NCBI GenBank assembly: GCA_021462855.1 | Contig: JAJTXQ010000019.1 | Coordinates: forward strand, 1 to 40,575 | Length of the DNA stretch: 40,575 nucleotides | From: Dehalococcoidia bacterium | GTDB lineage: Bacteria > Chloroflexota > Dehalococcoidia > DSTF01 > JACRBR01 | Direction: 5' to 3' | Part shown: piece after piece, positions 34,072 to 40,575 of the stretch | How positions within the stretch are numbered: position 1 is the stretch's first letter | How the letters are laid out: each line of letters begins with the position of its first letter | Made by a program: the position numbers and the translations under genes | Notes under the pieces: generated by a model | Databases searched by the model: none | Seen by the model: the letters and a program-made list of their open reading frames with translations, nothing else | Told to the model about the DNA's origin: nothing

Positions 34072-34638
34072 GTGATCGACCGCATCCGCGCGCTTCTCCG
34101 CGAATACGACCCGGCGTACATCGACAACGCCGCGCTGGCGCGCGCCGCGGTGCTCGTGCCGCTTTACGAGGTGGGCGGCGAGCCGCACATCATCTTCACC
34201 AAGCGGTCGGAACTGGTGGAGCATCACAAGGGACAGATCTCGTTCCCCGGCGGCGCGTTCGATGCCGACGACGGCGATCTGTCGCGCACCGCTGTGCGGG
34301 AGACGTTCGAGGAGATCGGCGTCGACCCGTCGCACGTCGAACTGCTCGGCCAGCTCGACGAGATGATCACGGTGTCGAACTTCCTTGTCCGGCCGTTCGT
34401 CGGGCGGATCACCGAGCCGGCGCCGTACCCGTTCTCGCACTCGGAGATCGAGGTCGCGGAGATCATCGAGGTGCCGGTCGCGCATCTGCAGGACCGGACG
34501 AACATGGTGGTGGAGAGCCGCATCCATGAAGGGCGGGAGATGTTCGCCTATTCCTTCACGTACCGCCACCACGTGATCTGGGGCGCGACGGGCCGCATCC
34601 TGCACCAGTTCCTCGAGCTGCTCGCGCTCCCGCGCTGA
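34072..34638 (+). CDS. Nudix hydrolase, CoA pyrophosphatase-like
   Basis: This 188-residue Nudix protein contains QISFPGGAFDADD (the UPF0035/CoA-diphosphatase signature preceding the box) and the box GAFDADDGDLSRTAVRETFEEIGV with the REXXEEXG core. The later PFVGRITE and FSHSEIEVAEIIEVP segments fit the NudL/CoAse group, which cleaves CoA and acyl-CoA to 3'-phospho-ADP and phosphopantetheine. The start is GTG at 34072, 31 nt after the previous gene. It converges with the sigma-fusion gene; a small GC hairpin (34631-34643) spans its stop codon. Confidence 0.88.
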   Translation: MIDRIRALLREYDPAYIDNAALARAAVLVPLYEVGGEPHIIFTKRSELVEHHKGQISFPGGAFDADDGDLSRTAVRETFEEIGVDPSHVELLGQLDEMITVSNFLVRPFVGRITEPAPYPFSHSEIEVAEIIEVPVAHLQDRTNMVVESRIHEGREMFAYSFTYRHHVIWGATGRILHQFLELLALPR

Positions 34639-34644
34639 GCGCGA

Positions 34645-35982
34645 CTACGGCGCGACGGTGGGCTCGGCGGTCACCTCGGCGGTCGGTGTGTTGCGCGGCG
34701 TGTTCGTCGGGCGCGGGGTGCGCGTCGGCGGGCCGGCGGGCGTGTTCGTCGGCGTCGGCGGGACCGGAGTGGGCGGCGCTTCCGTCGGCGGGACCTCTGT
34801 CGGCGGAGGCAGCGTCGCGGTCGCCGTCGGTTCTTCGGTCGCCGTCTGCGATGGCGTGAGGTTCGGCGTCGCCGTGTCGATGATGACGCCTGGGGTAACG
34901 CTGCTTTGCGCTGTCGCGGTGGCCTCGACCGCGGGCGCGTCATCGTCGTTTCCATCGCCTCCGCCGAACGTCGCGGCGATGAGCGCGCCACCGGCGAACG
35001 CCACTGCGAGCATGCCGGCTGCGGCGGCGGCGAACATCAGCACGCGGTTGCGCGCGCTGTTGTCGCCGGGCGATGCGCCTGCCGGCGCGAGGTTCCCGCC
35101 GCCACTGCCACCGCCGAAGCCCGCGGCGGTGAACGGCGCCGCGGCGGCGGGGATCGCCGCGACCGCGGCCGCGTCCACGTTTCCGTACGGCCACGCCTCG
35201 ACGAGCCCGCGCCAGATATCGCCCTTGGCGGCGAACGACGCCGGTACCGGCGTGAGCGAAGCGAACACGTCGAGCGGCGGCGGCATCGCGTTACGGGCTG
35301 CCTGGCAGCGCTCGCACTGGGCGGTGTGCTCGTCGACGGCGCGGCGGACGGCATCGGTGTAAGGCGGGAACTGGACGCCGGCGAGCGCCTGCTGCAGTCC
35401 CGGGCAGTCCGCGGCGCCCCGGCGCGCGAGGACGTAGCTGGTGATGGCGCCGGCGGCGGCCGCGTTCATCCGCTGGATCAGCGTGCGGGCGTTGGTCTTG
35501 CTCAGCTCGTGCATGCCGGCGAGCGCGCCCGCATCGAGTTCCTGGCGATGGCGCAGGTCGAGCAGCGCGTAGTCGCGCGGATTGAGCGTGGCGACGGCAT
35601 CCCATACGAGGCCGGGGTACTCCGCATCGCCCTGCGCGAGGGCGCGGTCGGCGAGCGCCGCGGGGTCAGGCGCCTCAAACGTGCCGAACGCTTCGTCGTG
35701 CGTCGGGCGGGCAGCGCCGGGGCTCAGCGCTTCGGCGCGCGGCAACGCGGTGTCGTAGGCGATGGCAAAGAGCCAGCCCCGGACGCTGAGTGCCTTGCCG
35801 GCGGCCGGCAGCTCGTGCATCGCGCGGGCGAATGTGTCGGCGGTGGCGGCGGCGGCCTCGGCCGGGTCGCGGAGCATGCGCCACGAGAAGTCGTAGATGC
35901 GCGAGAAGTAGATGTCGTACAGCTGGCCGAAGCTGTCGATGTCGCCGGCGGCGGCGCGGCTGACGAGCAGCCTGTCGTCCAT
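34645..35982 (-). CDS. ECF sigma factor fused to anti-sigma zinc motif, membrane helix and Thr/Pro exterior tail
   Basis: This 445-residue protein starts with a sigma region 2-like segment (1-75: SFGQLYDIYFSRIYDFSWRMLRDPAEAAAATADTFARA). A region 4-like helical segment follows (about 150-195: LNPRDYALLDLRHRQELDAGALAGMHELSKTNARTLIQRM). An HTAQCERC motif at about 230 matches the HxxxCxxC zinc site of anti-sigma factors. One membrane helix (about 316-340) is followed by an acidic patch and about 95 residues of Thr/Pro repeats predicted outside. GGAGG precedes the ATG at 35982. This combines transcription factor, inhibitor and sensor anchor in one chain, so activation would need proteolysis or a conformational release (inference). 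Divergent cohesin-like genes are candidate targets. Confidence 0.78.
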   Translation of the reverse strand: MDDRLLVSRAAAGDIDSFGQLYDIYFSRIYDFSWRMLRDPAEAAAATADTFARAMHELPAAGKALSVRGWLFAIAYDTALPRAEALSPGAARPTHDEAFGTFEAPDPAALADRALAQGDAEYPGLVWDAVATLNPRDYALLDLRHRQELDAGALAGMHELSKTNARTLIQRMNAAAAGAITSYVLARRGAADCPGLQQALAGVQFPPYTDAVRRAVDEHTAQCERCQAARNAMPPPLDVFASLTPVPASFAAKGDIWRGLVEAWPYGNVDAAAVAAIPAAAAPFTAAGFGGGSGGGNLAPAGASPGDNSARNRVLMFAAAAAGMLAVAFAGGALIAATFGGGDGNDDDAPAVEATATAQSSVTPGVIIDTATPNLTPSQTATEEPTATATLPPPTEVPPTEAPPTPVPPTPTNTPAGPPTRTPRPTNTPRNTPTAEVTAEPTVAP

Positions 35983-36123
35983 GGGCCCCTCCGCGGCGCC
36001 CGAAACGGGGCGCATCCTGCGTCCGGCACGATAGCACAGGCCATGCCGCGGCCGGGCGGCGGTACGCCGGAGAAGGCAACATTGCGGCTTGTCAACCAGA
36101 TGCGGATCGCGCGGCGGTGCTCG

Positions 36124-36153
36124 TTGACAGAACGCGGGCAGGGGGCCTATGAT
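36124..36153 (+). promoter_or_regulatory. Consensus-like sigma-70 promoter
   Basis: TTGACA (36124-36129), an 18-bp spacer and TATGAT (36148-36153): a perfect -35 and a 5/6 -10, the best promoter in the window. Transcription should begin near 36160, about 290 nt before the cohesin-like ATG, giving a long leader. Confidence 0.75.
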
Positions 36154-36159
36154 CCGCTA

Positions 36160-36350
36160 CCGCCTCGGGGCGGCAGGGTACGCGGCCAGGGGTGGGCCGG
36201 GTACCCTTCACATACACGCGACCAGGAAGGTCGCGCCCGCTTGGTACGCAGGACGCCGGAATCCGCAGGGATCGCGGGCATCAGGCCGCAGGTTCGTGGC
36301 TTTGCCACGGGTTCGGGGAGCGCAGCCGCCGGCCGGGTGCTCCTTTTTGT
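36160..36350 (+). ncRNA. Candidate structured 5' leader (possible riboswitch/attenuator)
   Basis: Successive stems are visible. GGGTAC (36176-36181) pairs with GTACCC (36201-36206), enclosing GGCC/GGCC. CGCGACC-AGGAA-GGTCGCG (36217-36235) follows. CCCGC (36236-36240) pairs with GCGGG (36274-36278). CGTGGC-TTT-GCCACG (36295-36309) is next. Last is GGAGC...GCTCC followed by TTTTT (36317-36348). CGCAGG appears three times between them. The order, several stems then a hairpin plus U-run upstream of a coding region, is that of a transcription-attenuating leader. It does not match c-di-GMP-I or another class I can recall. Confidence 0.45.
36317..36348 (+). terminator. Terminator-like hairpin with T-run in the leader
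   Basis: GGAGC (36317-36321) pairs with GCTCC (36339-36343), directly followed by TTTTT. The 17-nt interior can pair partially. It is located before the cohesin-like gene, so it would act as an attenuator rather than an operon end. Confidence 0.5.
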
Positions 36351-36453
36351 TGCTCTGCAACTCAACGGGATATGGCGGGATGGCCGGAGCGTTGTTGGAA
36401 GTGAAGGGACCGATCGCTTGGACCGAACCTCGCGGTGCCTCGGCGCACCCCGC

Positions 36454-37443
36454 ATGGCCCGGCGCGCCCTCTTCTGGGGCATGGTGCTGCTGATGACCGC
36501 GGTTGGCATCGGCTCGGCGATCGGTGCACCGGATGCGACCCAGGCGGCCGTGACCGCCACCATGTCGCTCGACATGGACCCGGCGACGCCCGGCGTGCAG
36601 GACTCCGTTTCCTACAACGAGGGCGTCGACCAAATCGACATTGATGTGTATGTCGAGGACGCGACGGCGATCGGCGCCTTCGAGTTCTGGCTGTTCTTCG
36701 ATTACACGATGCTGGAGTACCTGGGCTGGACGACTGGGCCGTTCCTCGGCAGCACGGGGCGCCCCGTGACGTGCCAGAACGTGCTCACCGAGAACACCGT
36801 CCGCATTGGCTGCACGACGAGCGGCCCGACGCCCGATGGACCGTCGGGCGAAGGCGTGCTCGGTACGCTCCACTTCCGGCCGCGGTTCGGGGGCGAGACG
36901 TGCATCTCCATGCTGCTGGTCGAGACGGCGGAGGTGCTCGGTCATGCCATCCCGACGGTCGGGTACGGCGGCTGCTCAACGCTGGTGCCGAACACGGCGA
37001 CGCCGACGCCGACGCGCACGTCGACGCCGACGCACACCCCGACCGCCACGTTCACGCGCACGCCGACCGCTACGCGCACGCCGACACCGACACACACGCC
37101 AACCACGGCGCCGAATACGGCGACGCCGACGGGCGTGCCGCCGACTTCCACGCCGCAGCGCTCGAACACATCGACGCCGAAGCCCGGGACGGCGCCTTCC
37201 ACACCGACGCTCGTGTCGACGGTGCTGGCAGGCACGCCGACGATGACGTCGCCGACGCAGACGCCGGTGCATACCGTCGTCGCGGGCGGCCCGCCGAACC
37301 GGTTCCCGGGCGCTGGCACCGGGCGCTTCGGCGATGGGAAGACCGAATGGGTGATCACCGCCATGAGCCTCGCCATCGGCGTGTTGCTCGTGGTGCTGTT
37401 GCGGCGGACGTTCTTCGACGACGAATCGGAGGACGCGACGTAG
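36454..37443 (+). CDS. Single-module cohesin-like surface protein with C-terminal anchor
   Basis: This 329-residue exported protein has an N-terminal signal sequence (ALFWGMVLLMTAVGIGSAIG) and one cohesin-like beta-sandwich (about 33-180: DIDVYVEDATAIGAFEFWLFFDYTMLEYLGW, then GPFLGSTGRPVTC). A long Thr-Pro linker (about 182-275) and a C-terminal membrane helix (WVITAMSLAIGVLLVVLL) with a charged tail complete it. Cohesins bind dockerins in cellulosome-type assemblies; in other bacteria similar modules serve in surface structures. The ATG at 36454 has no clear ribosome-binding site and other starts are not better. It is transcribed from the promoter at 36124. Confidence 0.75.
   Translation: MARRALFWGMVLLMTAVGIGSAIGAPDATQAAVTATMSLDMDPATPGVQDSVSYNEGVDQIDIDVYVEDATAIGAFEFWLFFDYTMLEYLGWTTGPFLGSTGRPVTCQNVLTENTVRIGCTTSGPTPDGPSGEGVLGTLHFRPRFGGETCISMLLVETAEVLGHAIPTVGYGGCSTLVPNTATPTPTRTSTPTHTPTATFTRTPTATRTPTPTHTPTTAPNTATPTGVPPTSTPQRSNTSTPKPGTAPSTPTLVSTVLAGTPTMTSPTQTPVHTVVAGGPPNRFPGAGTGRFGDGKTEWVITAMSLAIGVLLVVLLRRTFFDDESEDAT
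36997..37260 (+). repeat. Low-complexity ACGCCGAC-type repeats encoding a Thr-Pro linker
   Basis: Degenerate tandem hexamer/nonamer units (ACGCCGACG, ACGCCGACC, ACACCGACG) encode TPTxTPT. This is coding repeat DNA within the cohesin-like gene, and a likely slippage or recombination site. Confidence 0.7.
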
Positions 37444-37581
37444 CGACTCACCGGGGATGCGCACGAGGCGCGCCCCGCTGACAGGAACACCGCCGGGGAC
37501 GCAGACGGGGACAGGGAGTGCGGAGGATCTGCGGGCGCGGCAGGGGGAGCCAGGAGCGCGCGCGCGGCGCCGGCTCTCGCG

Positions 37582-40575
37582 TTGCGCTGCCCGTCGCGCG
37601 GCCTCCGCGGGCGTGCGTTCTTCGTCCCGTCGGGGGTCGTTGCGCTGCTTGCGGCGGCGGCCTTCCTTGCGATGGTGCTGGCGCCGGGCGCCGAGCGGGC
37701 GCAGGCCGTCGGCACCGGCGGCATGAGCGTGTCGCCGTCCTCGCAGATCGCGTCGCAGGGCGCCAACTTCAACTTTGACATCACCGCGGACAACGTGACG
37801 CACGTCGGGTCGTACGAGTTCGTCGTGTCGTACGACCCGAGCCTGGTTTCCTTCGTATCGGTCGCGAACTCGCCGTTCCTCGGAAGTACCGGACGTTCGG
37901 TATTTTGCCCGCCCGCGGTAAACGACGCGATGCTGGGCACGATCCGCTTTGGCTGCGCGAGCTTCGGCCCGTTGCCGCTCGGCCCGACCGGCAACGGCGT
38001 ATTCGCGACGCTCACGTTCCTTGGCCTCAACGCCGGTACGTCGCCGCTCAACTTGACGCTTGCCGAGATGTCGGACGAGCTCGGCGACACATTCACCGGC
38101 GTAACCGCGAACAGCGGCTCCGTGACGCTCATCGCGGGCACGCCGCCGCCGAGCTTCACTCCGACCGACACGCCGACGATCACGCCGACGCCGACGCCGC
38201 CATCGGGTTCGTGCGGCGTGGCGATTGCCGCCGCCGTGTGCTGGGACGCCACGGGTGGCACCTACAACGCCAACGTGAACTCGCCGCTCGTCGTGGGCAT
38301 GCGGGTCGAGGATGTGACGAACCTCGGCGCGTTCGACCTGACGATGAACTACAACCCGCTGGTGCTCCAGCCGATCAGCGTGGCGCCGGGGCCGTTCCTG
38401 GGTTCGACGGGACGCCCGGTGCAGTGCCTCGGGCCGGCGTACACCGCAACGACGATCAACTTCAAGTGCGTGACACTCGGCGCGACGCCGCCTGGCCCGG
38501 CCGGCGCCGGCATCCTGGTGTTCGTGACGTTCATGCCGATCGCCAGCGGGACCACGGGCGTGTCGTACGCCGATGCGGTGCTGCTCGATATCAGCGCGAA
38601 CGTGATCCCGGCGGGGTTCGGCGATACGGCGCAGGTCATCGTCGGGGACGAACTGACGGCGACACCGTGCGCCGGGCCGTGTCCGACCGCCACGGACACG
38701 CCATCGGCCACGTTCACGCCGTCGGAGACGCCGACGCGCACGCCGCTGCCAACAGACACGCCGACCGACACGGCGACGCCTTGCAGCGGACCGTGCCCGA
38801 CCGCCACGGACACCCCCACGCCGACCAACACGCCGACCGCGACGTCGACAGCGGGCCCGGCGACGCTCCGCGTGCTGCCGCCGTCGCAGACCGTGCGCGT
38901 CGGCGATGTATTCGACACGCAGGTGCAGATCGAGGGTGTCGGCAACCTCGGCGCGTTCTCGGTCAGGCTGCGCTTCGACCCGTCGATGATCGCGAAGCCG
39001 GTACCGACATCGGTCGCGCAGGTGACGGAAGGGCCGTTCCTTTCCAGCACGGGACGCACGACGCAGTGCTTCCCGCCGATCACGGGCGACCCGGGGACGG
39101 TGCAGTACAACTGCGTCACGAACGGGCCGCCGCCGCCGCCGGGCGCGAGCGGCACCGGCATCCTTGCGACGTTCCCGTTCACGGCCGTGGGCGTCGGCAC
39201 CACGGGCGTGCAGTTCGAAGACGTGGTGCTCACAAACCCGAGCGCCGTCATCATCCCGATCGCGGCGACGTTCGATGGTTCGGTGACCGTCGATCCGGCG
39301 GCGACGCCCACGCCGTGCGGCGGCCCGTGCCCGACGAGCACGCCGACCTTCACGCCGACGGCGGTCGCCACTGTCACCGGGTTGGCGCAGGGCGAGATCC
39401 TGCCGTTGCAGCAGATCGCCATCGTGAACCAGGTGGTCGAGGTGTTCGTGCGGGTCAGCAACGTCGACAACCTCGGCTCATACCAGTTCAAGATGAACTA
39501 TGACCGGCTGCGGCTGCAGTTCATCGATGCGACGAACCTGCCGTTCCTCGGCAGCACCGGGCGGCCGGTGTTCTGCCCGCCGCCGGGCGCCGATACGCAG
39601 AACGTAACGTTCGGCTGCGCGACCACGGGCGGTTCGCCACCGGGTCCGACGGGCGCCGGAAACCTCGCGCGGGTGCGGTTCCTGGCGACGGGCGTCGGTA
39701 TCGCGAACCTGCGGCTCACCGTCTTTGACCTCACCGACCCCCTCGCGGTGACGATCCCGTCGTCGATCATCGACACGCCCGACGACGTGCTGATCTTCCT
39801 CACGCCGCCGACGCCGACGCAGACGCCGACATCGACCGCGACGCCGGCCTCGCAGCCTTCGTGCGTGACGCAGCCGGGCGGCACCGGCACGACATGCATC
39901 GTCGTCGACGCCGACGCGTCGATCCCGGGCGCGCAGAGCGCGGTGTCCGTCCCGATGAGTGGCGCATTCACCGTCGATATCCTGGCGCGCGACGTGCCGG
40001 CGCAGGGACTGGCGCTCTTCGAGACGACGCTGCTCTACGACATCTCGTGGCTCACCGCCGGCACACCCACGACGCCACTTGGCCCGGAGTTCAGCTGCGG
40101 CTTCAAGGCGCCGACGGGCGACCTCCCCGAGTCGGACCTGGCCGCCGATGGCGACCCCGCGACGGGTGACGCATACATGAGCTGCGCGAACCTGACGCCG
40201 AGCGGATTCCCTTCCGGCGAGTTCGTGATCATGAGCATCCCGTTTACCGTTACGGGCCCGGGCGGCTCTTCGCTCGTCCCGTTCCACGCGTCGCTGAACG
40301 ACTCGCTCTTCGCGGAGATCGCCAGTTGCAACCCGGTGAACCTGCAGCCGGGCGCCGGCTGCCTCGCTGGCGCCGTCGCCAACACGTTCTTCCCAACGCC
40401 GACGAACACACCCACGCCTACGGACACGCCGACGGAAACCCCCACGCCGACCGACACACCGACGCCAACGGATACGCCGACCGACACGCCGACGCCGACA
40501 GACACGCCGACGGAGACCGCGACGTTCACCCCGACGGCGACACAGACGCCGGCGCCGCAGGCGGCGTGCACGACG
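37582..40575 (+). CDS. Multi-module cohesin-like surface protein (3' partial, start uncertain)
   Basis: At least 998 residues are open to the window edge. A signal sequence (VPSGVVALLAAAAFLAMVL then GAERAQA) leads to four clear cohesin-like modules at about 48-190, 211-360, 429-570 and 597-740. A diverged fifth lies at about 763-930. All are joined by Thr/Pro linkers containing PCxGPCPT segments. Modules 1-4 carry PFLGSTGRSVFC, PFLGSTGRPVQC, PFLSSTGRTTQC and PFLGSTGRPVFC; module 5 lacks this motif. Typical sheet motifs include VGDVFDTQVQIEGVGNLGAF. The TTG at 37582 is the best start that keeps the signal peptide; ATG at 37672 would truncate it. The frame is open back to the upstream gene's stop at 37443. 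No dockerin or anchor is seen before the edge. Confidence 0.75.
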   Translation, partial: MRCPSRGLRGRAFFVPSGVVALLAAAAFLAMVLAPGAERAQAVGTGGMSVSPSSQIASQGANFNFDITADNVTHVGSYEFVVSYDPSLVSFVSVANSPFLGSTGRSVFCPPAVNDAMLGTIRFGCASFGPLPLGPTGNGVFATLTFLGLNAGTSPLNLTLAEMSDELGDTFTGVTANSGSVTLIAGTPPPSFTPTDTPTITPTPTPPSGSCGVAIAAAVCWDATGGTYNANVNSPLVVGMRVEDVTNLGAFDLTMNYNPLVLQPISVAPGPFLGSTGRPVQCLGPAYTATTINFKCVTLGATPPGPAGAGILVFVTFMPIASGTTGVSYADAVLLDISANVIPAGFGDTAQVIVGDELTATPCAGPCPTATDTPSATFTPSETPTRTPLPTDTPTDTATPCSGPCPTATDTPTPTNTPTATSTAGPATLRVLPPSQTVRVGDVFDTQVQIEGVGNLGAFSVRLRFDPSMIAKPVPTSVAQVTEGPFLSSTGRTTQCFPPITGDPGTVQYNCVTNGPPPPPGASGTGILATFPFTAVGVGTTGVQFEDVVLTNPSAVIIPIAATFDGSVTVDPAATPTPCGGPCPTSTPTFTPTAVATVTGLAQGEILPLQQIAIVNQVVEVFVRVSNVDNLGSYQFKMNYDRLRLQFIDATNLPFLGSTGRPVFCPPPGADTQNVTFGCATTGGSPPGPTGAGNLARVRFLATGVGIANLRLTVFDLTDPLAVTIPSSIIDTPDDVLIFLTPPTPTQTPTSTATPASQPSCVTQPGGTGTTCIVVDADASIPGAQSAVSVPMSGAFTVDILARDVPAQGLALFETTLLYDISWLTAGTPTTPLGPEFSCGFKAPTGDLPESDLAADGDPATGDAYMSCANLTPSGFPSGEFVIMSIPFTVTGPGGSSLVPFHASLNDSLFAEIASCNPVNLQPGAGCLAGAVANTFFPTPTNTPTPTDTPTETPTPTDTPTPTDTPTDTPTPTDTPTETATFTPTATQTPAPQAACTT
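40387..40558 (+). repeat. Tandem ACGCCGACNGACACG repeats (Thr-Pro linker)
   Basis: Near-perfect repetition of ACGCCGACCGACACG-like 15-mers and shorter units encodes TPTDTPT. It looks array-like but has no spacers, so it is coding low-complexity DNA and not CRISPR. Confidence 0.7.

Follow-up and report, generated by a model that had tools for sequence, protein, structure and literature searches.

The window analysed here, the whole stretch of 40,575 nucleotides from a Dehalococcoidia bacterium, carries at 34645..35982 on the minus strand a gene of exactly 445 codons. Its product joins sigma region 2, sigma region 4, a zinc anti-sigma domain, one transmembrane helix and a Thr/Pro tail in a single chain. 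The initial annotation had read this order of parts from the letters alone, and the open reading frame, the profile matches and the homologues all agree with it. The homologues share the MDD start, which is preceded by GGAGG; an in-frame ATG at 36015 is a possible alternative but is unconserved. With a third-position GC of 0.895 the frame is evidently coding, and this composition together with the homologues rules out a chance ORF. On the opposite strand, an 845-residue ORF (34906-37443) lies antisense over the sigma gene; the initial part of it is an artefact of high GC, and only from 36454 onward is there a real gene.

Region 2 (residues 1-92; 35707..35982, minus strand) was assigned from profiles, alignment and fold. 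It is degenerate (D45A, Q48A, R76Y, N77D and R88P), and profiles match it only weakly: NCBIfam SigW gives 1.3e-8, and Pfam Sigma70_r2 gives 15.7 bits where the cut-off is 24. Region 4 (residues 118-186; 35425..35631, minus strand), assigned from alignment and fold, is likewise degenerate (H144R, G148E, E153A, Y166R and K/R173N); it has no Pfam match and aligns with family members that have one. The ZAS-like zinc anti-sigma domain follows (residues 187-265; 35188..35424, minus strand). Its HxxxCxxC motif, HTAQCERC (residues 219-226; 35305..35328, minus strand), had been recognised by the initial annotation, which overlooked the fourth ligand, C193; the complete spacing, C193-x25-H219xxxC223xxC226, fits H/C-x(about 25)-HxxxCxxC. 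The single transmembrane helix spans approximately residues 311-342 (34957..35052, minus strand; 309-339 in the structure model). Since the residues before it are basic and those after it acidic, the protein should be oriented N-in/C-out. The extracellular tail (residues 343-445; 34648..34956, minus strand) comprises 103 residues, of which 49% are Thr or Pro, without a folded domain; Pfam found no domain in it, and thus no carbohydrate-binding module. The gene is the only fused sigma in its genome.

Structure prediction, which had been suggested as a check on how the zinc motif packs against the sigma domains, returned a closed state. The AlphaFold2 model, built from residues 1-345 with 69 aligned members, reached a pLDDT of 82.9 and a pTM of 0.73, its confidence being high in sigma2, sigma4 and the zinc domain, and it contains sigma2 and sigma4 folds without sigma3, as is characteristic of ECF factors. 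The best fold match of residues 1-183 is SigW (5wur_A) from the SigW-RsiW complex (VIA alignment, Z 14.4, rmsd 3.1 over 153 residues), and the modelled arrangement resembles that of inhibitor-bound SigW. Region 2 matches region 2 of sigmaE (4lup) with Z 12.2, and PhyR is also among the fold matches. In profile searches against the PDB the zinc domain matched RsiW (3.6e-4) and ChrR (0.02), which lends some support to a ZAS identity; Foldseek matches of the isolated domain were weak (Z 3.0 to RsiW, 2.4 to RslA). SigW-RsiW of Bacillus subtilis comes closest in structure for the sigma half, and closest among PDB sequences for the zinc domain, but consists of two separate proteins where the window protein is one chain.

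The same architecture is widespread. A search of 148 related genomes with the window protein yielded 32 clear homologues, and the order of parts is identical in the 30 that were aligned. An independent second search used an alignment of canonical members and was keyed on region-4 peptides, and is therefore blind to the zinc domain; 74 of its 77 loci are fused with a zinc motif, nearly all of them with a membrane helix. Agreement of this kind in both sets lies far beyond chance. As a query against genome contigs, the window protein alone gave no match, whereas the alignment of canonical members succeeded. There are 89 further non-redundant fused homologues, in Chloroflexota, Actinomycetota and a few other phyla, and the four zinc ligands are kept in 90 of 90 aligned members, all with the pattern C-x(22-27)-HxxxCxxC. 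Hosts include Dehalococcoidia (among them Tepidiforma flava), Acidimicrobiia, Nocardioides, Aeromicrobium, Actinophytocola and a few others, as well as Thermomicrobium roseum, the sole yield of a plasmid search. The extracellular parts vary, from a Thr/Pro tail only to BACON plus Ig domains, cadherin/Big repeats, cohesin, CAP, sortase and a WD40-like propeller. Two fused sigmas (L078 and L125) come from MAGs titled Armatimonadetes and Holophagae and fall inside actinobacterial or chloroflexotal clades, a placement that could reflect transfer or misbinned contigs. At G000:C41:86420-87217, a separate ECF sigma aligns with the fused profile through the zinc part across a single TAG. The interrupted zinc part may be a neighbouring anti-sigma gene that shares its reading frame with the sigma, and the locus is likely a model of the pre-fusion state.

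The initial annotation had stressed that only a few ECF groups carry such C-terminal inhibitory extensions. The fusion is less exceptional than this suggests, since C-terminal membrane anti-sigma fusions have been described in ECF48, ECF52 and ECF53 of Actinobacteria and in IutY (ECF243) (PMC8999054, PMC5826349). ECF48 and ECF53 have a ZAS-type zinc finger and one or two transmembrane helices fused to the sigma C-terminus, as here (PMC8999054), and the fused relatives in Nocardioides and Aeromicrobium may belong to one of these groups. SCO4117 of Streptomyces coelicolor (ECF52) likewise unites an ECF sigma, a zinc finger, a transmembrane helix and a proline-rich extracellular part in one chain; it has two promoters, one apparently autoregulated, and proteolytic release has been proposed for it (PMC5826349). 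Compared by description, SCO4117 ends in a carbohydrate-binding module and the window protein has no end domain. ECF52 has been reported from Actinobacteria only, whereas the branch of the window protein includes Chloroflexota, and the sigma part of the window copy is degenerate. IutY of Pseudomonas putida also bears a membrane anti-sigma on its C-terminus, and its release by Prc and RseP has been shown (PMC8999054); it serves iron-siderophore signalling, however, and the window protein shows no sign of such a system.

Canonical members of the family share an upstream ECF-type promoter, TGTAAGAW-N14-KGTCYNAC (with definite bases, TGTAAGAA-N14-TGTCTAAC), which is conserved across phyla; its spacer is exactly 14 nt at 17 sites and 15 nt at 2 (Dehalococcoidia and Acidimicrobiia). 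It differs from the motif proposed for ECF52, CSGYN-17-SRHA. With the window's family left out of its training, a position-weight scan (p<=0.01) detected the promoter upstream of 40 of 76 canonical members, counting a -10 variant in Nocardioidaceae, versus 0 of 14 degenerate regions. In 19 genomes a shorter pattern gave 8 exact matches against 1 for a reversed control, and all 8 precede a fused sigma or a secreted or surface gene. Across 343 genomes of the class, a longer pattern gave 21 exact matches against 9 for the control (hand count). The genes that follow these 21 sites are fused sigmas (5), secreted or surface genes (11) and others or unclear cases (5), where the secreted/surface call was made by eye from an N-terminal hydrophobic segment, often in a Thr/Pro-rich protein, with no signal-peptide program behind it. 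Such a distribution would be the expected trace of a self-activating sigma factor for surface proteins. Our literature search found no paper tying TGTAAGA to an ECF factor. In two genomes (L182 in G005 and L183 in G002) a non-fused ECF sigma gene follows a similar site, CGTAAGAATCC...GAGTCYAAC, possibly a cascade or a related promoter. In a third (L198 in G308) an exact promoter site precedes a very short ORF for a membrane peptide of about 25 residues.

The neighbouring genes also point to the cell surface. A sortase gene adjoins the fused sigma in 16 actinobacterial loci (L104, L106, L114, L099 and 12 others), mostly directly downstream on the same strand, and four of these genes were confirmed by Pfam. 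In L029 (Dehalococcoidia genome G129; Pfam 3.1e-16) and in L091 a sortase domain is part of the sigma protein. Our search of ECF and sortase titles and abstracts returned nothing resembling a report of a link between sortases and fused sigmas. At L042, which has a CAP sensor, a second CAP gene follows with a two-mismatch promoter site 48 nt upstream. In the window, the divergent neighbour (36454..37443, plus strand) encodes a secreted cohesin-like protein with a Thr/Pro linker and a C-terminal transmembrane helix. Its cohesin domain recurs as the fused sensor of a relative, L024; this sensor resembles the cohesin domains in the surface proteins encoded nearby in the window (41-49% over 82 residues). 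A cluster of cohesin-like, Thr/Pro-linked surface proteins occupies 36454-40575 beside the fused sigma, and cohesin-like genes also flank the fused sigma in the relatives L053 and L054. A strong sigma70-type promoter, TTGACA-N18-TATGAT, lies at 36124-36153 (plus strand), about 300 nt before the cohesin-like gene. Rfam gave no match in the intergenic region and long leader of this gene and its RNA folding is not unusual, and we therefore make no riboswitch claim.

Within this family the window copy is derived. Compared with 75 canonical members it has lost D45 (conserved in 72 of 75), R88 (68), H144 (72), G148 (all 75), E153 (72) and K/R173 (73), so that the conserved residues for core binding (region 2.2) and promoter binding (2.4 and 4.2) are largely missing, while no zinc ligand is lost. 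Because region-4 peptides were the selection key of the second search, the contrast in region 4 is partly inflated; this bias does not affect region 2 or the promoter. The nearest relatives, L053 and L054, both keep a canonical sigma and the promoter, and L054, 57% identical to the window protein, scores 49.8 bits for Sigma70_r2 against 15.7. In the tree, the changed sigmas L051, L052, L055 and L017 form one clade with the window protein (support 96), and tree and alignment together reveal comparable change in other branches of the class. In some degenerate members, regions 2.4 and 4.2 still contain several basic residues.

The regulatory surroundings have changed as well. No family promoter precedes the window gene (score -4.4, p 0.65), and the window's genome has 0 sites with up to two mismatches, against 7 for the control; the one three-mismatch match in the window is at chance level and far from the sigma gene. 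Degenerate members of the same family share no new upstream motif beyond a housekeeping-like -10, although the test is a weak one; the conserved element in question, TGTGCTATCGT (36028..36038, minus strand), is probably a housekeeping extended -10. In 6 of 6 same-family relatives a membrane diguanylate cyclase (6TM plus GGDEF) lies directly downstream of the fused sigma, and these cyclases are 60-75% identical to the L053 copy. The window instead has a deletion point at 34638-34645, where 6 bases separate the fused sigma from a NUDIX gene with no diguanylate cyclase between them, and no orthologue was found elsewhere in the genome. The gene is still intact in degenerate relatives from other genera of the family. 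Two close pairs of degenerate relatives have a dN/dS of 0.07-0.24 across sigma2, sigma4 and the zinc domain, similar to canonical pairs. By this measure these two pairs are under purifying selection, which speaks against a dead gene.

We consider it somewhat probable that the family comprises one-piece, self-inhibited ECF sigma factors for their own genes and for surface genes, and that the window copy is probably a former sigma factor whose module has been kept as a mimic or partner binder. In canonical members, the fused ZAS domain would clamp sigma2 and sigma4 at the membrane in an RsiW-like closed state, as modelled here. A signal at the extracellular part could then trigger membrane proteolysis, by analogy with IutY and SCO4117 (PMC8999054, PMC5826349), and the freed sigma would transcribe its own gene and secreted or surface genes from TGTAAGAW-N14-KGTCYNAC, as the conserved sites suggest. 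The initial annotation had offered such cleavage-dependent release for the window protein itself. It suits the canonical relatives better, because the window copy has lost the conserved residues and the family promoter.

For the same reason the window copy may have ceased to function as a regular sigma factor. Its lineage appears to have lost the residues for core-polymerase contact and promoter recognition along with the ancestral promoter, with zinc inhibitor and anchor intact, and it is probably a pseudo-sigma or a respecified sigma. Most likely it does not act as a sigma of the ancestral type, and its entire cytoplasmic part, sigma and ZAS domain together, has probably been retained to mimic a sigma factor or bind a partner, in principle much as PhyR does. 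PhyR has a sigma-like domain whose regions for binding polymerase and promoter are degenerate, and it acts by protein binding (PMC8103513). The degeneration is common to both, but PhyR is a soluble response regulator that titrates NepR, and the window protein has no receiver domain. A PhyR-like mimic, a new specificity and an EcfP-like, phosphorylation-dependent activity are all possible for the window copy. More tentatively, several Dehalococcoidia lineages might independently have made membrane-tethered pseudo-sigmas for protein binding, for example as a signal-gated anti-sigma or sigma sponge, with intact members running a surface regulon from the promoter common to Chloroflexota and Actinomycetota.

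Alternatively, the window protein might still function as a sigma once cleavage frees it, having acquired a new promoter specificity and contacting core polymerase more weakly or only when phosphorylated. The ORF is intact with coding composition, relatives are under purifying selection in sigma2 and sigma4, the modelled fold is confidently sigma-like, and a changed sigma could use a changed promoter. There is also a precedent in EcfP (ECF43), whose sigma2.2 is missing the acidic core-contact motif DAED and which is nevertheless active once phosphorylated (PMC8999054). D45A is a partial parallel; EcfP, however, is soluble and kinase-activated, and no kinase link was found for the window protein. 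The search for a site-2 protease recommended by the initial annotation did find an M50 gene in the genome, a weak point in favour because M50 proteases were matched in 14 of 14 control genomes. The joint loss of several core- and DNA-contact positions, and the failure of degenerate same-family members to share any new motif except the housekeeping-like -10, make continued activity rather unlikely in our view. Decay after loss of the regulon and operon partner, leaving no present function, would account for the missing promoter, the lost diguanylate cyclase and the deterioration of sigma2, but we judge it improbable given the open frame, the GC3 of 0.895, the intact zinc ligands, helix and tail, the intact genes of degenerate relatives in other genera and the dN/dS well below 1 in two degenerate pairs. 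The initial annotation had held that absence of the core- and promoter-binding residues would leave a non-sigma membrane protein; those residues are indeed largely absent, yet sigma ancestry stands, and a chance resemblance, suggested by Pfam scores for the sigma regions under the curated cut-offs, is refuted to near certainty by the full-length homology to canonical fused sigmas such as L054 and by the sigma fold (Z 14.4).

The fused architecture is thus of a known kind, and the window protein belongs to a poorly described branch of it. In the literature examined we did not find the Chloroflexota branch, the cross-phylum promoter, the predicted regulon, the sortase link or the repeated sigma decay. 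Apart from the studied cases, SCO4117 and IutY, sensors that fuse sigma and anti-sigma are familiar mainly from domain diagrams, and this family now gains a concrete promoter sequence, a predicted secreted and surface regulon and a link to sortases. Since it also has culturable members in Tepidiforma flava, Thermomicrobium roseum, Nocardioides and Aeromicrobium, the mechanism is directly testable. The degenerate branch, moreover, offers a natural series from a working sigma to a possible sigma mimic with the inhibitor intact, an unusual evolutionary direction.
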